In this document: piece after piece, positions 3,032 through 32,329 of the stretch | Numbering within the stretch: the first letter of the stretch is position 1 | Layout of the letters: the number at the start of each line of letters is the position of its first letter | Origin: Phytoseiulus persimilis | Lineage: Eukaryota > Arthropoda > Arachnida > Mesostigmata > Phytoseiidae | NCBI GenBank assembly: GCA_037576195.1 | Contig: CM075104.1 | Span: forward strand, 5,152,775 to 5,216,774 | Reading direction: 5' to 3' | DNA: 64,000 nucleotides | Notes under the pieces: generated by a model | Told to the model about the DNA's origin: nothing | The model's input: the letters and a program-made list of their open reading frames with translations, nothing else | Databases searched by the model: none | Program-made: the position numbers and the translations under genes

Positions 3032-4834
3032 TCACTCGACACTCAGAAGTTTCCTCACATCATCCAGGATGTCAAGATCACTCAAGGGGAGATCCTTCCG
3101 GTAACTGTTCACGAGGGGATCCGCATGAACCATCAGCCTTTGCATCACATCGCGATTCACGCTCTCACGGACGTCCTTGAACGAGAAATTTTCTCGGAAG
3201 TTCTTGAAGAGCTTGTTCAATGCTTCCTGAGCTTCTTCACTGAGAGCACCTATGGGTTGGGTGCTATTCTCCACGATTGCCTGGCCGTGAATCAGAACCT
3301 TGTGCACTGTCACAGGCATGTAATACTACGGATAGCGCGTAACGAAAATATTCGCTGTGACGTGGCAGGACTCGCCGAACGCCGCACCGTTCAACTGGTG
3401 GCGAGAGTTGATTGCTTCCAAGATGATGTGGAGCCCATAGACCAACTCTGGGTCTAAGCCGGTTATCATAGCCGTCAAACCATGATTTCTGAAGAACTTG
3501 CGCGCCGTGTTGCCGTCATTGCTGGTGCCTCCGCCCGGTCGAACAACGGAAACAATCAGACCCAGTTCTTTCCTGAACTCATCCTGAATTTCCCGCAAGC
3601 GCTTGGTCCGTTGCGCGTTGCGCTGCATTCTTCTTTTCGCAACGCCATTTTCTGAAGTCCTGGTTACATGCGATATTGACAAGGCACTCCATGAAATTTA
3701 TTCTTGCGTGGAGTGGTGAGATACCGAATCCTAGAGCTTGCGGGTCGCATATTCTCGTGCGAACTTGCGCTGAATCGTTCATATCCTTCGGCGACGCTGC
3801 ACATATGAGGCACGCTTGTGATGCTTTGTTATTCAGTATAGCATTGGCGACCTTGCCATCTATCATCGGGCAGATCGAAGTGTGCTTGACGTAAAACTGC
3901 CTCGCTCCTAGAGTGATATCTGATGCTCGGGGACCGTTGATTTCGCTCTCTGTCCGAGAAATTTCACTTCTGATCAAGTCCGCTGACTCCTTGGCGAAGG
4001 TGAACCTTAAAGGCCGGCACAGTCTCAGCGAAGACGGTTTTGGATTTTTCCAAACGATCGCTCCTGTTGTATCGTCCCTCAGTTCAAGAGGTACCACTGA
4101 AGTCGCGAATAAGCTGGCGTCAGAGAAGGATGGATCTGAGAATCTCTGTCTGTACTGGCTTTGTCCAGATGCGCCATCGCAACCCCACTTCGATGTAAGA
4201 ATCAGTTTAGGTGACATTGCGGATATCTCATCTGATGTTGCCGACATCAGCAAGCGGCCTACGGTGTGATTCAACAACTCCTGCAGTCCCACTCTGGCGC
4301 CCAGCTCGCCGATTAGAATCCCTTCTGGATAACATTCTTTTTTGGCCTCCAGAACCTGGTCGTAGCTCGGGTACATTCTGTTTCCAAAAGCCAATGCAGC
4401 GATTCGATGTTGGATGTAGGATTGCTTGGAAGACTTTGTGTCGATGAGGAGAGTCAACGCCGCAGTAGGGCTCATTTTCTGTTCCTTGAACTCCGGTGAA
4501 ACATCATATGCAGCGCGGATCAGGGAATCTGGATACATCTGCCTGAGTTCCTCCGCTTTTACTTTCTGTTGAGTTCTACTACACTCTTCAAACACTTTCG
4601 TCGGACGCCCCCTGGGCTTTCCTAAGACTACAGTCGGAACTGCACTCGTGGAAGCTGCCTTGGATGGACTTCTTTCATGATGAGTTCGAGATCGTGCTCT
4701 TTCGAAACGATGATCTTCATCAGATCTCGATTGGTGATCAAAAGTTGGAAGGTTCTCCTCTTGTAGGAAGTAGTTGAGCAGCGAACAACGTTAGAGATTG
4801 GCAGTTGGAGGCAGTCAGGTTCCGTCACTATCAC
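3032..4834 (-). pseudogene. RAG1/Transib-family transposase, broken
   Basis: This is a DDE transposase of the family that gave rise to vertebrate RAG1. Motifs in order: an AT-hook-like KPRGRPTK; WGCDGASGQ, matching RAG1 CDGMGD with the first catalytic Asp; NPKPSSLRLCRPLRFTFAKES, matching KPNSELCCKPLCLMLADES; ACLICAAS, matching the CxxC zinc pair; SPLHARINFMECL, where RAG1 has ALHCDIGN; DGNTARKFF, matching GNFARKLM; VHKVLIHG, matching the HKTLAH zinc histidines with identical spacing; and SEEAQEALNKLF, matching SEGNESGNKLF with the catalytic Glu. The second catalytic Asp is therefore not at its RAG1 position. The frame changes near 3640, and a TAG at about 3326 replaces what reads as Trp in RYPWYYMPV. 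The N-terminal 4628-4834 segment is in another frame. The copy is not functional. Confidence 0.72.
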
Positions 4835-4892: not shown

Positions 4893-5012
4893 TTACATTG
4901 GCGCCGCGTGGATCCCAAAATGGTGGGGAGAAGTTGAAACTTCTGGCTCGAATCCGATCTCATGCTAGTGTTATGGCTCGATAAAATCGATTCCATTCCC
5001 ACGGATCCACGG
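4893..5012 (-). repeat. Right inverted repeat of the RAG1-like element
   Basis: It pairs with 2897-3006. Its outer end abuts the DDE transposase fossil at 5013. Confidence 0.65.
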
Positions 5013-5950
5013 AGACCGGCTTCCCGTGGTACGCCGTGTAACGATCGGCATCTTCTTGCGATCTCACGGAAGCTGCTCCCTCTTGCCTTTCATCGCGGGC
5101 ATCAATAAGTTGAAGCCCAGCTCGCGCATGTGTGTCACAGCATCCCGGGAGCCGCGATCGACAATTAGCACATCATATCGCTTCAGTAGAGCTAGGAGAT
5201 TCTGATCCTGTGAAACTTGCTTGACGATTGTGGCGTCGTTTCCTCTTCCAGAAAACGGTCCAGCAAAATCGACAATGAGTCCATTAGTTGAACGTATGGT
5301 GAATGGCCTGCACTAAGGCTGTTTCTTCATTCCTGAGTAAGCCCGTCGCTGGTAGGCGTTGTGTTACTGCTCTTCTGGTGACGGATGCAAGTCCCATCTA
5401 GAACGAGGGCAAGTTGATCCTCAAATCCTCACCGAGCGCCAGAAGCCGCTTCGCAGCCATTGTAGTGTTTTCGAGCAATGTTTGACGATTGAGGGATGGA
5501 GGACCGAAGTGATTCAGGTCGTTGCGCTCAAACGCCTCCATCACACTCGTGAAGGAACGCGAGACGAATCGAGCGCTCCCTAGGTCGAGCATGCTCGCAA
5601 TGACATCGTAGGAGTTTCCCGTCCTTAGTTTGTTCAGGAAAATGAAGAGAGCTTGATTCACGTTCCGGAATCTGCTAGTTCTGAGCGTATCCAGGCAACG
5701 CATTAATTCAAGGAAGTTATCACGGCAGAAACCAGTGAGATTCCCGCACTGGATTTCCGAGAGATCTAAACATCCTATCCGTTCGTACAACGTCGTGCCC
5801 GGATTGCATCGGAATAGTTGATTCAATTCTTGGAGGGTAATCCATGTATATTGAGAAAAGATGGGATGTCTTCGATGTTCTCAATTCTGTGTGCGAAGCA
5901 TATCCGGCCACCGTCCAGCATATAGATGTTAGCTTCGTTTAAGACTATGC
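5013..5950 (-). pseudogene. Decayed DDE (IS5/PIF-like) transposase copy
   Basis: This is a broken relative of the intact transposase at 8241-10232. Reading on the minus strand it begins with a segment like FAHRIENIEDIPSFLNI, matching CEAHRIINID of the intact copy. It continues through TTLYERIGCLDLSEIQCGNL, NVNQALFIFLNKLRTG and FGPPSLNRQTLL. Then comes a DQLALVLDGT-like segment with RHQKS, matching VLDGTYIRHQKS and the first catalytic Asp. Stops and frame changes interrupt the rest. The reading ends at the inverted repeat of the RAG1-like element, and the C-terminal half with the SWIM finger is not found beyond that element. The two copies are clearly diverged, so the family has been active more than once. 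Confidence 0.7.
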
Positions 5951-6394
5951 ATCGTTCGCTGACGTTCATGAGACAAAGCCCGCTTGTTCATGAGCACACG
6001 ATGCACCGTCGGTGAGTGAACGATGGCCATGGATTCCTGAAATTTCGATTCCCCCGCCCTCGCCGATGGATGCATTTGCTTACAGCCGTTCCCCCCGGGC
6101 GGTCAGCTATGTACAGGTTTTCGCGCCTGACATGTATCATGTATGCACATTCTGAGTTGCGACTTCATCACTAGAGAGCTCAGGGTTCGAAAAAATCGGG
6201 GGGTCGTCCGAAAAAAAAAATAAGCCAGAGAAGAAAGCGCCCATTTTTTTCAGTTTTTTTGCGAATCCTCCGAATCACCGTCCGATTCAGCTTAACTCCA
6301 AAGTGCGCTCCCGACACTATCTATTTCCGTATCGGTCTCGAATTCATTGATTTCGAAGGTATGCGTCCGTCTTCGATCCAAACGGCTCTCTCCT
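5951..6394. other. Gene-free, A/T-run-rich
   Basis: This stretch contains poly-A and poly-T runs near 6210-6260 and no supported ORF. It resembles in texture the stretch at 2240-2880, and both may be subterminal transposon DNA. Confidence 0.3.
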
Positions 6395-7090
6395 TCAGCT
6401 TTTCAAAAATCCTATCTGGGAGCCGAGATATGAGCCTTTGAAAGAACTCAAGTGCCATAGCTGCAAGCCACTCATCGGATCGGTTCCGTAATCGAAGACT
6501 CTAGTAAGCCGCCGATTAACACTTCGCAAGCAGCCGTCGAGCAACGGCTCGCAAGATCGGAAGTTTTCAGCGTTCAACCCATGAAGGTAGCGCTCCAGTA
6601 TGGGGAACATGAGAAGAGTTGGGAGCAGCGTCCCGGAGACGGCTGTCGTTCTTCCTCGAAGCTTTCCTACCGCGGTGCTGATGGGCGCGGCGCTCAGAAC
6701 GTATTCCTCGTGGTAAGAAGTATCATGCTCTGTGAGGAACGCCCCGATGGGCAGTTGCTCTTCCAACGCGTTGTAGTGCTGCCTGAGCGCGATCAGCGCC
6801 GTCGCATGGTCATGCGGACTGTTTTATCTCGCTGCCACAGGTCACGGTAAGCATTTCCCTGTGACCCTTCCGATGATTTCCGCTGTCCTGCGGCGCCTAG
6901 GAAGGTTACACAGGACATTACATCCCGCCAGCGCTCAGCTGTTTCGAAGCGTTCATTTAGGAGAATCTTTGTGGACCAAAATTTGTTGGAAGGATTTCGT
7001 CCATATTTGTTAGGGATTTTGTATTCGTCGGAAAAAAACTGGATATCGAATCTAACAGTCAGCGAGAGCCAACGCAGCGTCTCTTCTACG
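6395..7090 (-). pseudogene. hAT-type transposase fossil, C-terminal piece
   Basis: The minus-strand frame from about 6793 down to 6395 reads ALRQHYNALEEQLPIGAFL, then HEEYVLSAAPISTAVGKLRG, then SGTLLPTLLMFPILERYL and CEPLLDGCLRSVNRRL. This is the typical hAT (ZBED-related) order: an 'EEYxxVMxPxAxALDxLQG' block, a 'GxLLPTL' block, then 'LLDGLxxRF'. The stretch between 6800 and 7090 is less clearly hAT. The piece ends at the left arm of the foldback-like element. Its N-terminal counterpart lies at 11877-12430 in the same orientation, so the transposase appears to have been split by that insertion. Frame changes are present and the copy is dead. Confidence 0.55.
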
Positions 7091-8090
7091 AAAGGGTCTG
7101 GGCGGTTTCTGTCCATGGTGACGGATTTCGCTGAAAATTGCACTGAAGCATCCCTGCGTAGAGTGGAGCTACCACAGCAAGTTTCAACCTCCGGCGATCC
7201 TCCGTTCGCTTTAAACAATGAAGTTAAGTCTTGAAAAAAAAAACTTAAAATCGTTATATCTCGAGAACTACTGGGGCTACCGCGCCGATCGACAACTTTT
7301 TGGAATGCTCTCGCCAAGGGCCATCTTCTGGCGTTATAGGATCTAAGATAGGTCGATTGCTTCCATGATTTTGTTAATCGAAGTGTCACTTCCTGGCGAG
7401 TGGCCACTCTGGTAAGTACCTAAAAATATAGTCCTAGGACCCCCCTACATGCTGGGGAAATATCAGCGAGTTCGGAGTGTTCCTTCCCTATTGATTTGAT
7501 AAAAGTAGTATGTCGATCAGATCAGGGTTTTGCCATGTCGCCTCGAAGCGTCACCGAAGCTGCCTGGAGCTCGCTGTTCTACGTTGTTTCGAAGTGAGGG
7601 ACCTTTGCACGCCTCGGAGACGAGAAGAAAATACACTGTTTCTTGCGTAGAAAATACTTACCATGAGCTATAGGCGTTATGGTCAGGTCGAGCTCAGAAT
7701 CACCTCCATAGACCCCTAAAAGTATGGTCAGGTCGACCTAGGAATCACCTCCATAGAACCTCAAAAGTAAGGTCAGGTCGACCTAGGAATCACCTCCATA
7801 GACCCTCAAAAGTATGGTCAAGTCGACCCAGGAATCACCTCCATAGACCCTCAAAACTATGGTCAGGTCGACCCGGGAATCATCTCCATAGACCCCCAAA
7901 AGTATGGTCAGGTCGACCCGGGAATCACCTCCATAGACCCTCAAAAGTATGGTCAGGTCGACCCGGGAATCACCTCCATAGACCCTCAAAAGTATGGTCA
8001 GGCTGACCTGAGAATCACCTCCATAGACCCTCAAAAGTATGGTCAAGTCGACCCAGGAATCACCTCCATAGACCCTCAAAAGTAGGTACA
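7091..8090 (+). repeat. Left inverted arm of the foldback-like element
   Basis: It pairs with 10866-11873. The outer ~590 bp are non-repetitive. The inner part (7681-8085) is a 45-bp tandem array. Any ORF reading through this arm, such as the one across 7090-7234, recurs in mirror image in the other arm and is not independent coding evidence. Confidence 0.85.
7681..8085. repeat. 45-bp minisatellite, nine units (left arm)
   Basis: Units start at 7681 and then every 45 bp, with the core ggtcaggtcgacc followed by ggaatcacctccatagacc. Because 45 is divisible by 3, a repeat reading frame (LLRVYGGDSRVDLTI) stays open on the minus strand; it is a by-product of the array. Unit variants, for example the ggtcaggctgacc unit near 7996, occur in the same order as in the right arm. 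Confidence 0.9.
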
Positions 8091-8204
8091 CTCAGTTGAC
8101 GAAAAGACCTTCTAAGAACCTCTCTAATGAATGCCATGCACCAGCCCTCGAACCCTGTTCGGAGCACCACAAGACTATACTGCCATCGTGAATCGAATCA
8201 TTGT

Positions 8205-8210
8205 TTTATT
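8205..8210 (-). promoter_or_regulatory. Poly(A) signal of the DDE/SWIM transposase
   Basis: AATAAA on the minus strand lies about 30 nt past the transposase stop codon, inside the element's unique centre. Confidence 0.65.
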
Positions 8211-8240
8211 TTCCTGCATGCTGATTCTTGAACACGCTCT

Positions 8241-10232
8241 TCAATCGTCGGCTTCATCTTCTTGTGACTCTTGATCATCTTCAGCCATGAATATTCCCAC
8301 CAAGTCGGCTGCAGGCCGACGCAGGGTCGGTAAATACCTAGCGTGAGACAAGTAGTAAATCGCTGCGGCTACATGGGCACAGCATCCGACAGTTCGACTC
8401 CCATTAGGACATTCGCACCAATGAGCTCTGATCCCTTCGATTCTGTTCAGACCAGATTCGTACTGTACGAAAAGCCGGTACGTTTTCCGACTGACGTGAC
8501 GGGACCTGATGTCCACGCGAACGATGCTGGGCTCGGCCTTCACAAAGCGCATCGAAACGTTGTTCTCGACGTCCAGAGTTTCCGCCAGGTAGGAAGAGGC
8601 AAGTTTCATCTGATACGGCCCCGATGCGAGGGTGACCAGTTCGCGCTCCGTCAACCTTGGGAAATCGGTGAGGTCTGCTGCTGATATCCTCTCGAGTGTT
8701 GTCGGTCTTTGCAGCCATCTCATGTGTTCGACCCGCTCTCCGAGCTCATTCGGCACTTCCTGTCGCGCATCCATGCGGTCGAGGATCTCCATTTCTGAGT
8801 CACCGAGGCCCCAAGATAGCCCACCGAATCGGTTCTCCAAGTATCCGACGATCTTGCAGAGGGTAGGGACTCTGTAGAGCAGTTTGTTGTCCACAACATG
8901 ATGCAGCAGTTTGTAGCGCTGGGCAACGCGACCGTGGACAGCTTCTACGACCCAACGAACCTTGGTGATTCTTCGAGAGAGGTTCGCTTCTGCGCAAGGG
9001 ATCTGCTCCCTATTTCCCTTCATTGCCGGCATGTATACTTGGAAACCCTTGTCTCTCATGTACTGCACAGAGTCTCTGAATCCGCGGTCCACCACCAGAG
9101 CATCATTTGGTCTCAAGAGCGACAGGAGAGTCTGATCTTCCAAGACCTTCTTCACGATAGAAGCGTCGTTTTCCGTTCCGAAGAAAGGTCCAGCGAAATC
9201 TACGATGTATCCGTTGGTAGTACAGATAGTGAACGGCTTGCATAGGTGGCACTTTTTCTGACCGGAGTAGGACAGTCGCTGAAAAGCGTTATTTGTGCTC
9301 TTCTGATGTCGGATGTAGGTGCCGTCGAGCACGAGTGCAACTTGGTCCTCAGACAAGCGGAGAAGCCGTCTTGCTGTGCTCGTTGTCGCGGTCAGCAGGA
9401 TTTCGCGTGTCAATGATTGCGGCCCGAAAAATCCCAAGACGTCACGTTTGAAGGCCTCCGCTACGCTGGCGAACGCCGTGGATACAAGCTTGGGATTTTT
9501 CAACTCCAGGAGACTCGCAATAAAACGCTGAGAACTCCCAGATCGGAGTTTCATCAAAAACATGAAGAGGGCTTGGGCAGCATTGAGCGCTCTGGAACTC
9601 CGCAAGGTCGGTAGCGAATCGATGATTAGGGTAAACTGCTCGCGCGAAAATCCAACCAGGTTCCCCAGACAGACGTTGGAAACTTGGAGACTCCCAACTC
9701 TTGCGAATAGAGTCTGAGGGGGGTCACGAAGTAACTCTCTTAACTCGGTAACATCGAGCTCTGCGTGATCTTCTACGCTCGACAGGTCGTTTTTCGGGTC
9801 GATATTGATTATTCTATGAGCCTCGCAGGTGCGACATCCTTTTGGGATGAAGATGTTGTCCGTTTTGAATACCTTGTGACGGTCTACGAAGTTGATGATG
9901 CGAAGACCCTGGGTGGACTTACACACTAAGCACCGCCCGGTATGTGCTGACGTCCTCGGAACCTCGTAGACAAAGGTTTCGCGTTCTGGATCCACTGTGA
10001 AGTCTTCATCTTCTCGATCCGAATCTGTTGTGGATTCTGCCTCAGTGGAAGCTGCGGACTGCGAGTTTTGGCGAAAGTACCGGCAGGTCCCGCACAGCAT
10101 CTCGTTGACGGCGACCGCCTTCCCGAAGTGCAAGAGGCAACGATCGATATCAGCTTGAGTGCTCACTCTCTTCGGGCGACCTTTGACGCGACTCATCCAT
10201 CTCTTGCATACTGCACACTTCGTTTGAGGCAT
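8241..10232 (-). CDS. DDE transposase with C-terminal SWIM zinc finger
   Basis: This is a 663-residue intact transposase and would cut and join the ends of the surrounding element. The start is the ATG at 10232 (MPQTKCAVCKRW); the frame continues upstream only to a GTG. Domains in order: a Cys-rich N terminus (CAVC at 6-9, CGTC at 47-50); an acidic linker; a second Cys pair set (CLVC at 101-104, CRTC at 133-136); a helical region; then a DDE_4-type catalytic core. Catalytic candidates are Asp303 in LVLDGTYI, Asp382 in LVVDRGFRD and Glu430 in RWVVEAVHGR. That arrangement is typical of IS5/PIF-Harbinger/ISL2EU-like enzymes. A SWIM motif follows: Cys606-x-Cys608, then Cys618-x-His620, in WCECPNGSRTVGCCAH. 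The tail is acidic. No stops or frameshifts are seen. A SWIM finger is better known from Mutator-like transposases, so this combination is notable. A TATA-like box and an AATAAA flank the gene. Confidence 0.85.
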   Translation of the reverse strand: MPQTKCAVCKRWMSRVKGRPKRVSTQADIDRCLLHFGKAVAVNEMLCGTCRYFRQNSQSAASTEAESTTDSDREDEDFTVDPERETFVYEVPRTSAHTGRCLVCKSTQGLRIINFVDRHKVFKTDNIFIPKGCRTCEAHRIINIDPKNDLSSVEDHAELDVTELRELLRDPPQTLFARVGSLQVSNVCLGNLVGFSREQFTLIIDSLPTLRSSRALNAAQALFMFLMKLRSGSSQRFIASLLELKNPKLVSTAFASVAEAFKRDVLGFFGPQSLTREILLTATTSTARRLLRLSEDQVALVLDGTYIRHQKSTNNAFQRLSYSGQKKCHLCKPFTICTTNGYIVDFAGPFFGTENDASIVKKVLEDQTLLSLLRPNDALVVDRGFRDSVQYMRDKGFQVYMPAMKGNREQIPCAEANLSRRITKVRWVVEAVHGRVAQRYKLLHHVVDNKLLYRVPTLCKIVGYLENRFGGLSWGLGDSEMEILDRMDARQEVPNELGERVEHMRWLQRPTTLERISAADLTDFPRLTERELVTLASGPYQMKLASSYLAETLDVENNVSMRFVKAEPSIVRVDIRSRHVSRKTYRLFVQYESGLNRIEGIRAHWCECPNGSRTVGCCAHVAAAIYYLSHARYLPTLRRPAADLVGIFMAEDDQESQEDEADD

Positions 10233-10427
10233 GACGATAACCCTCTTACCAAGCAGGCGCACAGTAAAAAACACGCCGTGTAAACTCGCTGGGCCAAGTC
10301 TCGGCACACTTCTAAAGTCGGTTCGCAGGCACAGGGAGCAAGCGCTGCTTACTCACGAGCACTGAAGGGCAAAGTTACGACTCCAAACGTGCACGATGGA
10401 GCAGTGGAGTGTTCTGAGCATATAGAG

Positions 10428-10436
10428 TATATATAT
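10428..10436 (-). promoter_or_regulatory. TATA-like box upstream of the transposase
   Basis: A tatatatat run lies about 200 bp upstream of the transposase ATG within the element's unique centre. It is a plausible core promoter, but the distance and low complexity leave doubt. Confidence 0.35.
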
Positions 10437-10865
10437 GGAAAGCTACCGCGTCATCGGGGTGGGGTACCCCCAGCTCTCACTCTCTAAATCCTCTTCTGCA
10501 CTCGGGGTTCAATATCTATTGCATACATCTCCGAGTCCGGCTCTGTTTTTTCAGTCGGCACGTTCCCACGGAGTCGGTATGGGGTTCTTTGAGCTAAAGC
10601 TGTTGCTGAACATGAAGAATTCCGCATTCAGGCATCTCTGTCGCATCTGGAATCCGTTTCACTGGACCGCCGTCGGCTAAACATGTGCTGCTTACGAAGA
10701 CGCGCCGGAGAACGACTCCAAGACGGCATTTCATGATTCGAAGCTCTCATGAGACACATGTGGTTTTCTGTGCGAGTCTGTAGGCGCGGTGAGGCATGGG
10801 GAGCTTTTGATGTGCTAGCATTCTCGCTCACTCATGAAACGAAAGCTCGAGAAGCAACTGGGCTT

Positions 10866-11873
10866 TGGTCGACCTGACCATACTTTTGGGGGTCTATGGA
10901 GGTGATTCCTGGGTCGACTTGACCATACTTTTGAGGGTCTATGGAGGTGATTCTCAGGTCAGCCTGACCATACTTTTGAGGGTCTATGGAGGTGATTCCC
11001 GGGTCGACCTGACCATACTTTTGGGGGTCTATGGAGGTGATTCCCGGGTTGACCTGACCATACTTTTGGGGGTCTATGGAGATGATTCCCGGGTCGACCT
11101 GACCATAGTTTTGAGGGTCTATGGAGGTGATTCCTGGGTCGACTTGACCATACTTTTGAGGGTCTATGGAGGTGATTCCTAGGTCGACCTGACCTTACTT
11201 TTGAGGTTCTATGGAGGTGATTCCTAGGTCGACCTGACCACACTTTTAGGGGTCTATGGAGGTGATTCTGAGCTCGACCTGACCATAACGCCTATAGCTC
11301 ATGGTAAGTATTTTCTACGCAAGAAACAGTGTATTTTCTTCTCGTCTCCGAGGCGTGCCAAGGTCCCTCACTTCGAAACAACGTAGAACAGCGAGCTCCA
11401 GGCAGCTTCGGTGACGCTTCGAGGCGACATAGCAAAACCCTGATCTGATCGACATACTACTTTTATCAAATCAATAGGGAAGGAACACTCCGATCTCGCT
11501 GATATTTCCCCAGCATGTAGGGGGGTCCTAGGACTATATTTTTAGGTACTTACCAGAGTGGCCACTCGCCAGGAAGTGACACTTTGATTAACAAAATCAT
11601 GGAAGCAATCGACCTATCTTAGATCCTATAACGCCAGAAGATGGCCCTTGGCGAGAGCATTCCAAAAAGTTGTCGATCGGCGCGGTAGCCCCAGTAGTTC
11701 TCGAGATATAACGATTTTAAGTTTTTTTTTCAAGACTTAACTTCATTGTTTAAAGCGAACGGAGGATCGCCGGAGGCTGAAACTTGCTGTGGTAGCTCCA
11801 CTCTACGCAGGGATGCTTCAGTGCAATTTTCAGCGAAATCCGTCACCATGGACAGAAACCGCCCAGACCCTTT
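10866..11873 (-). repeat. Right inverted arm of the foldback-like element
   Basis: It is the mirror of 7091-8090. Differences noticed by eye are few single bases, for example near 11433, 11492 and 11778. It starts inward with a partial extra unit at about 10866-10880. Confidence 0.85.
10881..11287. repeat. 45-bp minisatellite, nine units (right arm)
   Basis: This is the reverse complement of the left-arm array. The order of unit variants is the same counted from the outer end. The frame is open on the plus strand for the same reason as in the left arm and is not a gene. Confidence 0.9.
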
Positions 11874-14604: not shown

Positions 14605-15020
14605 TCTATGAAATCAACATCGATGATATCAACCTCTATTATATCAGTTATCGTTTGTATCGAACTCCATTGTATCAGTTTTCGATTGTATCAACCTTCA
14701 TTATAACAGTTTTCAATTGTACCAACCTCTATTATATCAGTTTCGATCGCATCAATCCCAAATATATCAGTATTCGATTATATCGACTTGGAATGTATCA
14801 GTTTTCAATTTCATCAACTTCAATCATATCAGTTCCCGATTCTATCAACCCCGAGGATGTCAGTTTTCGATTGTATCAACCTCAATTATCTCATTCTTCG
14901 ATTGTATCAACCTCAATCGTATCAGTTTCGGATTATATCAACCTCAACAATATCAGTTTCCGATTGTATCAACCTGCATTCTATCTACTCTCGACTCGAT
15001 CAATGTTAGAGGCTAACAAC
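14605..15020 (+). repeat. 31-bp minisatellite, about 13 units
   Basis: The unit resembles 'tatcagttttcgattg' followed by 'tatcaacctcaat'. The 'tcaacc' anchor recurs at 14629, 14660, 14691, 14722, 14752, 14783, 14814, 14845, 14876, 14907, 14938, 14969 and 15000, which is a 31-bp period with one 30-bp step. Units are diverged at several positions. The plus strand lacks stops in all three frames over most of the array because the unit has no stop in any phase. There are no unique spacers, so it is not CRISPR-like. Confidence 0.9.
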
Positions 15021-29214: not shown

Positions 29215-30421
29215 ATGCCAACAAGAGTTGAAGAGGTGAGTCCTCCAGCATTGTCTGAACGCTCGGAACCTAAATTGTGGAACGTCAGAGGCACTTCCGC
29301 TAAATCAGTAGTGCTCGACCGCTTTTTTTTTGGAAGACTCGGAAATCATTATGCACTTCCCTCCTCTCGTGAGCTGTGGCTGCCGTTTGATATGTGTCGC
29401 CGAGTTGCCCTGCATTGAACTCACTATTTGAACTTCATTCTCCGTAAAATTGGATTCCGGCTCTCTATCAAGCTCCGACCGGCTAACGTGTCACAACATT
29501 GTTCCATACCTAACTTGAAGAGAGAATCTGATTCCAGCTTAAGTCGGACATCGATGAGCTTCGTAAGTTGATGGAAGTAGCCTCGCGCGTGAAAGTCAAA
29601 GATGTCCTCAGCATCGAGTTGCGCAAGATGGAGACAACTCTGGTCTTGTTGAAGGAAACTGCGGAGCACCAGTCCGGTTCAACCGCGGTGAGCAAATCAT
29701 CGAACATCGCGAAACAGATCCCCACTGAGAAGATAAGGAACTATGGTGAGTTCAGAGTGCCTGCGAGTGTGGTCGCTGAGAATTCCAACCAAGTCTTGCT
29801 TCCGATCGCCATACGCTCTTTCGAGCAACGATGGAGATTATTTGGAAGTGAGCAATCTGACGGCTAGGGCGGTAGAACAGCTCGACGCCTGAGCATTGTA
29901 CTGAACAATATCTCATTCTGAAATTGCCGAAAATGACTCAGGAATGCTTCTATCTCCTAGCGTGGGACCAATCGGATAAATTCGTCAAGTTCTACCTAAC
30001 TGTTCCTGGGGTTCACCATCTCGACGCAAACCTGATCTCGCTCACAAGCACCGAAACGAGTGTCTCGCTCACTGTCTCGGCGCCCGAAAAAGTCAGCACT
30101 TTCAACATCGACAAACTCCTCAACACCGTCATCCCCGAGGAATCGTATCACAAAGTCAAACCGGATAGTGTTATTATTTTCTTGAAGAAGAAACAAGCCG
30201 ACAAATGGCCCTTCATCACCAAGACTGAGAAGGAAATCAAAGAAGGCCGCGACGCCAAGTTCACTCCGGATGACAAGTCGACTGATCCATCAGAGGGACT
30301 CATGGGCATGATGAAAAAGCTCTACCAAGACGGTGACGATGAGATGAAGAGGACGATCGCGAAAGCTTGGACGCAAAGCCGGTCCGATGGATCGTCTTCA
30401 CTCTCTCCGGATTTCCTCTGA
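29215..30421 (+). CDS. CACYBP: Calcyclin-binding protein / Siah-interacting protein
   Basis: Adaptor that links Siah-type E3 ligase activity to SCF-dependent degradation and binds S100 proteins in animals. Three exons: 29215-29235, 29538-29745 and 29961-30421, with introns of 302 and 215 bp and GT-AG borders, in phases 0 and 1. The product is 229 residues; human CACYBP is 228. Exon 1 encodes only MPTRVEE. Exon 2 gives the helical N-terminal dimerisation region (LKSDIDELRKLMEVASR). Exon 3 starts inside NYAWDQSDKFVKFYLTV, the start of the CS domain (about residues 75-165). It ends with the SGS domain: STDPSEGLMGMMKKLYQDG, then DEMKRTIAKAWTQSR, nearly identical to the vertebrate motif. The very short first exon was chosen because its donor GTGAGT and the fit to the conserved N terminus are both good. 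AATAAA at 30622. Confidence 0.95.
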
Positions 30422-30730: not shown

Positions 30731-32329
30731 TCAGAATCCGGGTACGTTCAGAACCCGTCCTTTCTTCGACAACTTCCTCAACTTATTGCCCACTTTCTGT
30801 TCGCGTCGGGCTTGTAAGTTCGCCTTGCGTTTAGCTTGACGTTCATCTTGCTGTTTCTTCACCGTGTCCTGGCGAGCTGCCCATTTCTTCTTCGACCTCT
30901 CTTTGAGTTTCTCTCTTTTCTTGATGGACTTCCTCAGCATTTCCGCGTCATTCTTCTTCTTGATTCCTTTTGACCTATCGATAGCATCCAGCCATGCCGC
31001 TTTCTCTTCTATTTCAGTTGCTTTGCTTGGGTCCGACTCCTGCAAAGATTCACAGGTCATAGCATAGTACAATTCCAAGAGATAATTGAATATGTGGGAG
31101 CGACTCAATTCGAGCTTCCTTCTACTTTTGCGCTCTTGATTACTCTCCTTCGAACCGGACAACCGCGGCGTTTACCTTCAGTTCCTCGAGCTTCTTCTGC
31201 TTCGCTTCGACGAACTCGAGCTGCTTCTTGTAACCCTTGAGCCCCTTGACGTTGGTCATCTTCTTGAGCGCCTTGTTGTTGGCTATCGGTGTGTCTGGGG
31301 CGCCGTTGTTGCTGAAATCGAACTTGCTGAAGACCATCTTGCCCTCAGAATTGAAAACGGCCTTCGGATTGCCACTCGGAGCGGGCGTGGTTTGGTCAAC
31401 CTCCATGCTCTCTTCGGTTCTCGACTTTCCATCTGTGAACATAACCCAGCTCAGTGATTTTGATTTGGACCTCCCGGTAATTGAGAACTCCTTCGCGAAG
31501 ATGATCAGATCGCTCACTTTTAACTTGATTCCCTGTTCCCCGCTTATTTTTCTGCTGGCGCAGTTTCTCGATTTCCCGACGGGCTCGGATCTGTTCCAGA
31601 TCGCGCCCGGACTTCATTTTTTCAATCTTCTGTCGCAAGCTCTGCTGGAGTGCTTCGATCGAGGACGCTTTGTCCAACGCCGGCGAGTGTAGCGTACCCT
31701 GTTTACTCACTGCAAAACATTAAAGCCTACAGTAATTCTCCACACATGGATCTAGCCTTGAATATGCTGAAACGGCTCGCTGCCTAAGAGCTTGAATGGA
31801 TTTCCTCACTCACGCAAGGTCAGTCTGTCTTTCTTGATCTTCTTGTTCTGTTTTTGACGAATCCCTTTTTCTTCCGCATCTACTTCTTCGAGGATTCGCA
31901 AAACGCTCTTGTTGATGGCGGGATTCAACTTTGCGAATTTGTGCTTCCCAGCTTGACCAAGTTTGCCGAACCGTTGACTTCCTCCTGTAGCAATCAACGA
32001 TGGGATGATTTGAGATAAGTTGAGTGAATTGAGATTCTCACGCAGTTCATGTCAGCTCGGAAACAGCTGCGATGTATTCATGTTCTTACTGTCGCTGTGG
32101 GAAGACCCTCCCAAATTAGAGAACAGCCACCAAAAAGTTGACTACAAGGACGTAACTCACCAAGTGCACTCTCTGTTGTTTCCAAGATCTTCTCGCGAAT
32201 CTCCTTGACAGTGTCTTGGTCGAAATAGAATTTTGCAGGGATCGTGTTGACCAAGGAACAGAAAAACGCATCATCGCTTCGAATCCGTTCGAGGGCACTG
32301 CCTTCCGGCGTTGTCTCGATAGGAGCCAT
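30731..32329 (-). CDS. SURF6: Surfeit locus protein 6 (ribosome biogenesis factor)
   Basis: Nucleolar RNA-binding protein (yeast Rrp14) needed for ribosomal subunit assembly. Five exons on the minus strand: 32161-32329, 31814-31984, 31518-31709, 31176-31432 and 30731-31039, with introns of 176, 104, 85 and 136 bp and GT-AG borders, in phases 1,1,1,0. The product is 365 residues; human SURF6 is 361. It starts at ATG 32329 (MAPIETTPEGSALERIR). Exon 3 carries SIEALQQSLRQKIEKMK, matching the RLHEKI-type helix. Exon 4 carries GKMVFSKFDFS (vertebrate GLIFNKVEVS) and VKGLKGYKKQLEFVEAKQ. Exon 5 carries the SURF6 domain: EEKAAWLDAIDRSKGIKKKN, KSIKKREKLKERSKKKW and VKKQQDERQAKRKANLQ. The basic coiled-coil character is as expected for a nucleolar protein. 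It is convergent with CACYBP and divergent from Ro60. Confidence 0.94.

Follow-up and report, generated by a model that had tools for sequence, protein, structure and literature searches.

The element at 7091-11873 of the window, by which we mean the whole analysed stretch of 64,000 nucleotides of Phytoseiulus persimilis DNA at 5152775-5216774 of contig CM075104.1, combines long repetitive arms with a transposase of the DDE_4 type, and it raises the question of which group of DNA transposons such a combination belongs to. Repetitive foldback arms are familiar from Mutator-related elements. They have also been described for the P-related element Galileo (PMC3688188, in the part of that paper drawn on here). 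The preliminary description saw at this locus a whole-looking, foldback-shaped element with a SWIM finger and a DDE_4 enzyme related to PIF and ISL2EU, and in these respects it agrees with our analysis. We conclude, with a probability of about 90%, that the element is a probably autonomous Spy-type cut-and-paste DNA transposon of the PHIS superfamily with a foldback architecture.

The features of the element are collected in Table 1. The span first assigned to it does contain the element; its outermost AAA and TTT are target DNA, and the element proper covers 7094-11870 (4777 bp). The two inverted arms of about 1 kb, built partly of 45-bp tandem units, are present as described. Aligned over 994 positions, AAA included, they are 99.0% identical (984 identities, 9 mismatches, and 1 gap), and the arm length of this copy is 991 bp. 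The repeats at 7235-8084 and 10881-11730 are 99% complementary, and the outer ones at 7091-7249 and 11715-11873 are 97% complementary. The insertion is flanked by ...CTTCTACG on the left and GTTGATTATC... on the right.

Table 1. Parts of the foldback element and its target site, in window positions
Feature	Positions	Strand	Basis
Left half of AAATTT target site, AAA, host DNA	7091..7093	.	other copies' unoccupied sites and end comparison
Left arm (long terminal inverted repeat), tip GGGTCTGGGCGG	7094..8084	+	arm alignment
Left-arm 45-bp tandem array, 9.0 units	7678..8084	+	
Transposase gene, 663 aa, no intron needed	8241..10232	-	
Right-arm 45-bp tandem array, 9.4 units	10867..11287	-	
Right arm (long terminal inverted repeat), ending CCGCCCAGACCC	10867..11870	-	arm alignment
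Right half of AAATTT target site, TTT, host DNA	11871..11873	.	other copies' unoccupied sites and end comparison

The transposase gene between the arms is intact and conserved. It is the single uninterrupted gene that had been reported, open from its first ATG without an internal stop; three other open reading frames of at least 100 aa between the arms (103-115 aa) all lie inside it. The protein matches the Pfam models DDE_Tnp_4 (E = 8.8e-18, residues 301-461) and SWIM finger (E = 1.8e-4, above the curated cut-off, residues 588-627), and the catalytic triad D303, D382, and E430 and the SWIM motif C606-x-C608...C618-x-H620 are found at the positions claimed for them. In addition, the N-terminal part contains two CxxC pairs, at residues 6-9/47-50 and 101-104/133-136. 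No aligned DDE_4-family row that extends to a triad motif has lost it. The SWIM motif is present in 13 of the 16 aligned rows, the window protein included, the other three being fragments that end before its position. Thus the SWIM finger, noted earlier as common in Mutator-like transposases, is no tie to Mutator elements. Neither a Mutator-type model nor a P-type transposase or THAP model is among the seven Pfam matches up to E = 1. In NCBIfam only IS5/IS4 models were matched, far under their cut-offs, and no relative was found among solved structures, where a ribosomal protein (E = 0.93) was the sole match up to E = 1. The AlphaFold model is poor (mean pLDDT 44.5), and its fold adds nothing firm. 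Between the window transposase and that of locus L010, dN/dS is 0.19 at a near-saturated dS of about 1.0, which makes it probable that the gene evolved under purifying selection between these two lineages.

The preliminary description predicted many copies with common outer ends, and would not have stood had the arms occurred at one locus only. The genome (181 Mb in 127 contigs) was searched with the first 910 bases of the arm, the best 40 of 1031 candidates being scored, so all locus counts are lower bounds. At least 95 arm matches were obtained, 66 of which were clustered after array-only rows and one 28-base row inside locus L039 had been left out. They form at least 36 loci, at least 24 of them with arms in both orientations. 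Many of the related copies are small hairpins without a transposase gene, and at no fewer than 15 loci the arms abut without a spacer. At least 14 of these loci share one junction, between arm positions 579 and 653; hence their descent from a single palindromic progenitor is most likely. An internally deleted copy, L039, lies on another chromosome than the window copy. Between its left arm and the right arm of the window copy there are 1006 matched positions, 1 mismatch, and 2 gaps; its own right arm agrees at 399 of 401 positions, and some 100 bases of filler separate the two arms. The near-identity of its arms to those of the window copy, together with the deletion, suggests recent movement and interrupted gap repair.

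The copies stand in different flanks and have constant ends, AAA/GGGTCTGG...CCAGACCC/TTT. Tip matches were retained only if they start no more than 12 bases from the tip; 34 of the resulting 35 have their start at the first or second base of AAAGGGTCTGGGCGG..., and the odd one is L040, which has a small insertion near its tip. Target duplication was assessed in 14 paired copies of the window element's family, namely 13 of the 24 both-orientation loci and L052, which is a single arm in the locus clustering and was paired from tip matches. None of the 14 has a direct repeat of 2 bp or more beside its ends, and no flanking TWA or AT repeat and no 8-10 bp duplication was found in them; their longest shared strings within 40 bases of the ends are 4-7 bp and do not adjoin the ends. 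Four more of the 24 loci, with tips read later, stand outside this count. Three of them have an eroded end, and the one with readable ends is not duplicated. The remaining seven, with a truncated arm or with sequence not fetched, were outside the test. The constant target duplication that had been anticipated is therefore not borne out by any of the paired copies. Instead, when six copies of a related family, called B below, are counted with the 14, the element is preceded by AAA in 18 of the 20 copies and followed by TTT in 17, all departures being one-base changes.

The window element has several relatives in the same genome, where a protein search with its transposase gave 78 matches. Family B (L012-L016, L018, and L019), with transposases 54-62% identical to that of the window over the aligned parts, has the ends AAA/GGGTCTCGG...CCGAGACCC/TTT, that is, the same GGGTCT tip and the same target. 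Its terminal inverted repeats (TIRs) are about 362-367 bp in L012, L014, and L018 and more diverged or shorter in L013, L019, and L016. None of its seven printed loci shows a duplication by eye, and no 45-bp array is present in the fetched stretches. Two copies on different chromosomes and in different flanks, L014 and L015, share 99.84% identity over 3.1 kb, and so family B has moved recently; dN/dS within it ranges from 0.43 to 1.24 (NG86), with few changes involved. Closer to the window element is a second element, L010/L040, whose transposase is 69% identical and whose homologous arms bear the same tip (its ends are AAAGGGTCTGG...CCAGACCCTTT). Its arrays are larger, with 30.0 and 40.2 units, and the right arm is apparently interrupted. 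The longest inverted repeats of L017 and L021 have different termini (GCCGGCC and GCCCCACC), and these repeats may not be the outer ends. A decayed remnant of a family B Spy element is also found in the window itself at 5004-6442, about 650 bp from the main element, with 75-95% protein identity to L012 in pieces and about 69% DNA identity to the L012 TIR.

The nature of the target is indicated by unoccupied sites. The flanks of 20 insertions were joined by AAATTT and searched in the genome with the best 40 candidates per search. Among the matches listed, unoccupied paralogous repeats were found for five insertions (L039 and L055 of the window family; L018, L013, and L016 of family B), and no unoccupied copy for the other 15, the window copy included. 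From 84 rows, 16 were fetched, mostly high-scoring, and each flank was aligned separately; in four cases one flank alignment ended 1-2 bases before the site and was extended without gaps. All 16 unoccupied paralogues have six bases between the flanks: AAATTT in eight, AAAATT in four, all belonging to L039, and AAATTC, AGATTT, CAATTT, and AAACTT in one each. The use of AAATTT in the query and the choice of mostly top-scoring rows may favour AAATTT-like sites slightly, yet cannot make the flanks collinear. On this comparison of sequences AAA and TTT are target bases, and insertion between them duplicates nothing and loses nothing.

Leaving no target duplication makes Spy unusual among eukaryotic cut-and-paste elements; its founding paper reportedly dates from 2014. 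In the portions of the literature cited here, Spy elements have an AAATTT target without duplication (PMC4482050), one ORF (PMC11304231), and a DDE domain akin to those of PIF and ISL2EU (PMC4482050, PMC11304231), and intact copies measure 1165-5910 bp with TIRs of 5-691 bp (PMC11304231). The window element agrees with this group in its insertion between the AAA and TTT of AAATTT with no duplication, in its single ORF with a DDE_4-type domain and triad related to IS5/PIF/ISL2EU, and in its length. Since insertion of this kind is the published Spy hallmark, we place the element with Spy in the PHIS superfamily rather than with Mutator-type Foldback, PIF/Harbinger, or ISL2EU elements. It differs from the described Spy elements in the length of its arms, 991 bp against TIRs of 5-691 bp, a size range and not a group definition, in the 45-bp arrays and the many palindromic foldback derivatives of its family, and in the SWIM finger, the word SWIM being absent from the main text of PMC11304231 and PMC4482050. 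Neither a foldback Spy nor a Spy transposase with SWIM was found described in the consulted portions of these two papers or in literature searches, which is not proof of absence. As Spy is already described and the target site places the element there, the enzyme lineage is probably not undescribed, contrary to what had been proposed.

Other origins of such an element are conceivable. FB/NOF and other Mutator-related Foldback elements are generally known to have the foldback shape and long arms with internal tandem units, and the SWIM finger could be added to this likeness; FB/NOF, however, has a Mutator-type transposase and 9-bp duplications. Neither is found in the window element, whose catalytic domain is DDE_Tnp_4, whose seven Pfam matches include no Mutator-type model, and whose family lacks 8-10 bp duplications, so that a Mutator-type Foldback can hardly be credited. 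Decay of the target duplication in a PIF/Harbinger or ISL2EU element is a very unlikely explanation, too. These groups share the DDE_Tnp_4 domain; moreover, in the cited portion of PMC4482050, ISL2EU is likewise given a preference for an A/AT/T target, and TIRs of up to 1042 bp are recorded for PIF/Harbinger, so that long arms as such have a precedent in the PHIS superfamily. However, near-identical copies with undecayed ends (the window copy and L039; L014 and L015) lack a duplication, and the unoccupied sites consist of six bases, AAA-like then TTT-like, none of which is duplicated when the site is filled. According to the same portion of that paper, PIF/Harbinger and ISL2EU differ from our element in TWA or AT duplications and mostly a second ORF (PMC4482050); neither repeat flanks the element, and neither a second Myb/SANT ORF nor a second YqaJ ORF is among its ORFs of at least 100 aa.

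There is also little likelihood that the transposase gene was captured by an unrelated element or satellite to which the arms belong, the other case that could have undone the preliminary description. Diverged one-direction 45-bp arrays without a visible partner arm, such as those of 54.6 and 46.5 copies at L042, speak for such an origin. Yet the arms that enclose the 69%-identical transposase of L010/L040 are homologous and have the same tip, a 53%-identical transposase in L024/L029 stands between inverted 45-bp arrays, and family B has the GGGTCT tip and the target without the arrays: ends, target, and transposase travel together. It is still less probable that the 45-bp units encode a 15-residue peptide repeat, which would explain their stable period. 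Of 136 distinct units, 121 can be read through in one forward frame, but the other 15 contain stops, and variation, judged by eye from the column table, extends over all three codon positions with no concentration at the third. A coding role of the unit is unsupported, and codon constraint was not seen.

Arrays of 45-bp units occur at seven of the eight fetched loci of the clade with 69-77% identical transposases, the exception being L022, and arrays of this period also accompany some relatives at 48-53% (L021, L024/L029, L033/L037), with unit consensuses down to 58% identical to that of the window in the nine compared, all from arrays of period 45. A 45-bp unit is also repeated 2.3 times in the flank of L030, a locus next to L020, and L020 groups with family B. 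In a tree of array-bearing and array-less relatives from the window's own genome only, two changes are needed for the array label; with weakly supported deep nodes (74/81) and more than half of the sequence missing in 6 of 14 rows, the tree would allow one origin or two. The best-kept core of the unit is ATGgtCAGat.G.tc.cGgAATCAC, and kept columns of the unit tend to cluster, with mild significance (p = 0.015, column permutation). An end motif inside the unit is not significant in 15 tip-unit pairs on both strands, its best score being reached by 39 of 1000 shuffles, and the string AGGGTCT common to tip and unit is no more than shuffles give. The units of the left arm are 90.7% alike among themselves, whereas the arms are 99.0% alike in register; the arms were therefore probably copied from one another as wholes, for example by arm-to-arm conversion.

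A possible course of transposition can be outlined on the analogy of Galileo, a foldback-like element of the P superfamily, which has similar long arms with internal tandem repeats but a transposase of the P type. Galileo would work in a like manner without being the same element. Its transposase carries a THAP domain, which attaches at several places in the arms (PMC3688188, cited portion). By analogy, the 45-bp arrays may act as multivalent binding platforms for the transposase. The window protein would recognise and move the GGGTCT-containing ends, inserting the element where a flush (zero-stagger) cut has separated AAA from TTT, and no target bases would then be duplicated. Interrupted gap repair and arm-to-arm pairing could then yield internally deleted and palindromic derivatives, which the transposase might move in trans. 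We tentatively suggest, as a possibility short of an even chance, that the element represents a Spy sub-lineage in which arm arrays of fixed 45-bp period serve as multivalent docking platforms for a zinc-finger/SWIM transposase and spill out as 45-bp satellites and palindromic mobile hairpins. If so, a foldback architecture with repeat-built arms would have arisen independently once more, on a flush-joining enzyme. Foldback arms on a Spy enzyme indicate that transposases of unrelated kinds have come to carry them, and suggest that the arms have a function in common. Moreover, several related families are found in this genome, and their open transposase genes, near-identical copies, and legible unoccupied sites make the role of long arms for a flush-joining transposase directly testable.

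Diverged 45-bp arrays running in one direction were also observed at L042 (4-2451 and 4413-6501, 54.6 and 46.5 copies) and L047 (625-2357, 38.5 copies), where they adjoin or surround arm copies; they may be satellites seeded by transposon arms, or may reflect a repeat-rich neighbourhood. Further 45-bp arrays lie in the flanks of L046, L054, L055, and L056. An 87-bp tandem unit containing GGTTAGGTTAGGTT, which resembles the arthropod telomere repeat TTAGG, lies near two transposon copies on different chromosomes (L039 1821-1984; L020 2611-2912). In the window, a 31/62-bp tandem array is present at 14627-14975 (11.3 and 5.6 copies), and a 403-codon open frame at 3579-4790 on the minus strand, with no Pfam match up to E = 0.1, bears by eye a possible resemblance to a Transib/RAG1-like transposase. 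Finally, a CS-domain exon at 29876-30421 on the plus strand, with an SGS match just under the cut-off, perhaps belongs to a calcyclin-binding-protein-like host gene, and a SURF6-like exon of a host gene is located at 31140-31613 on the minus strand.
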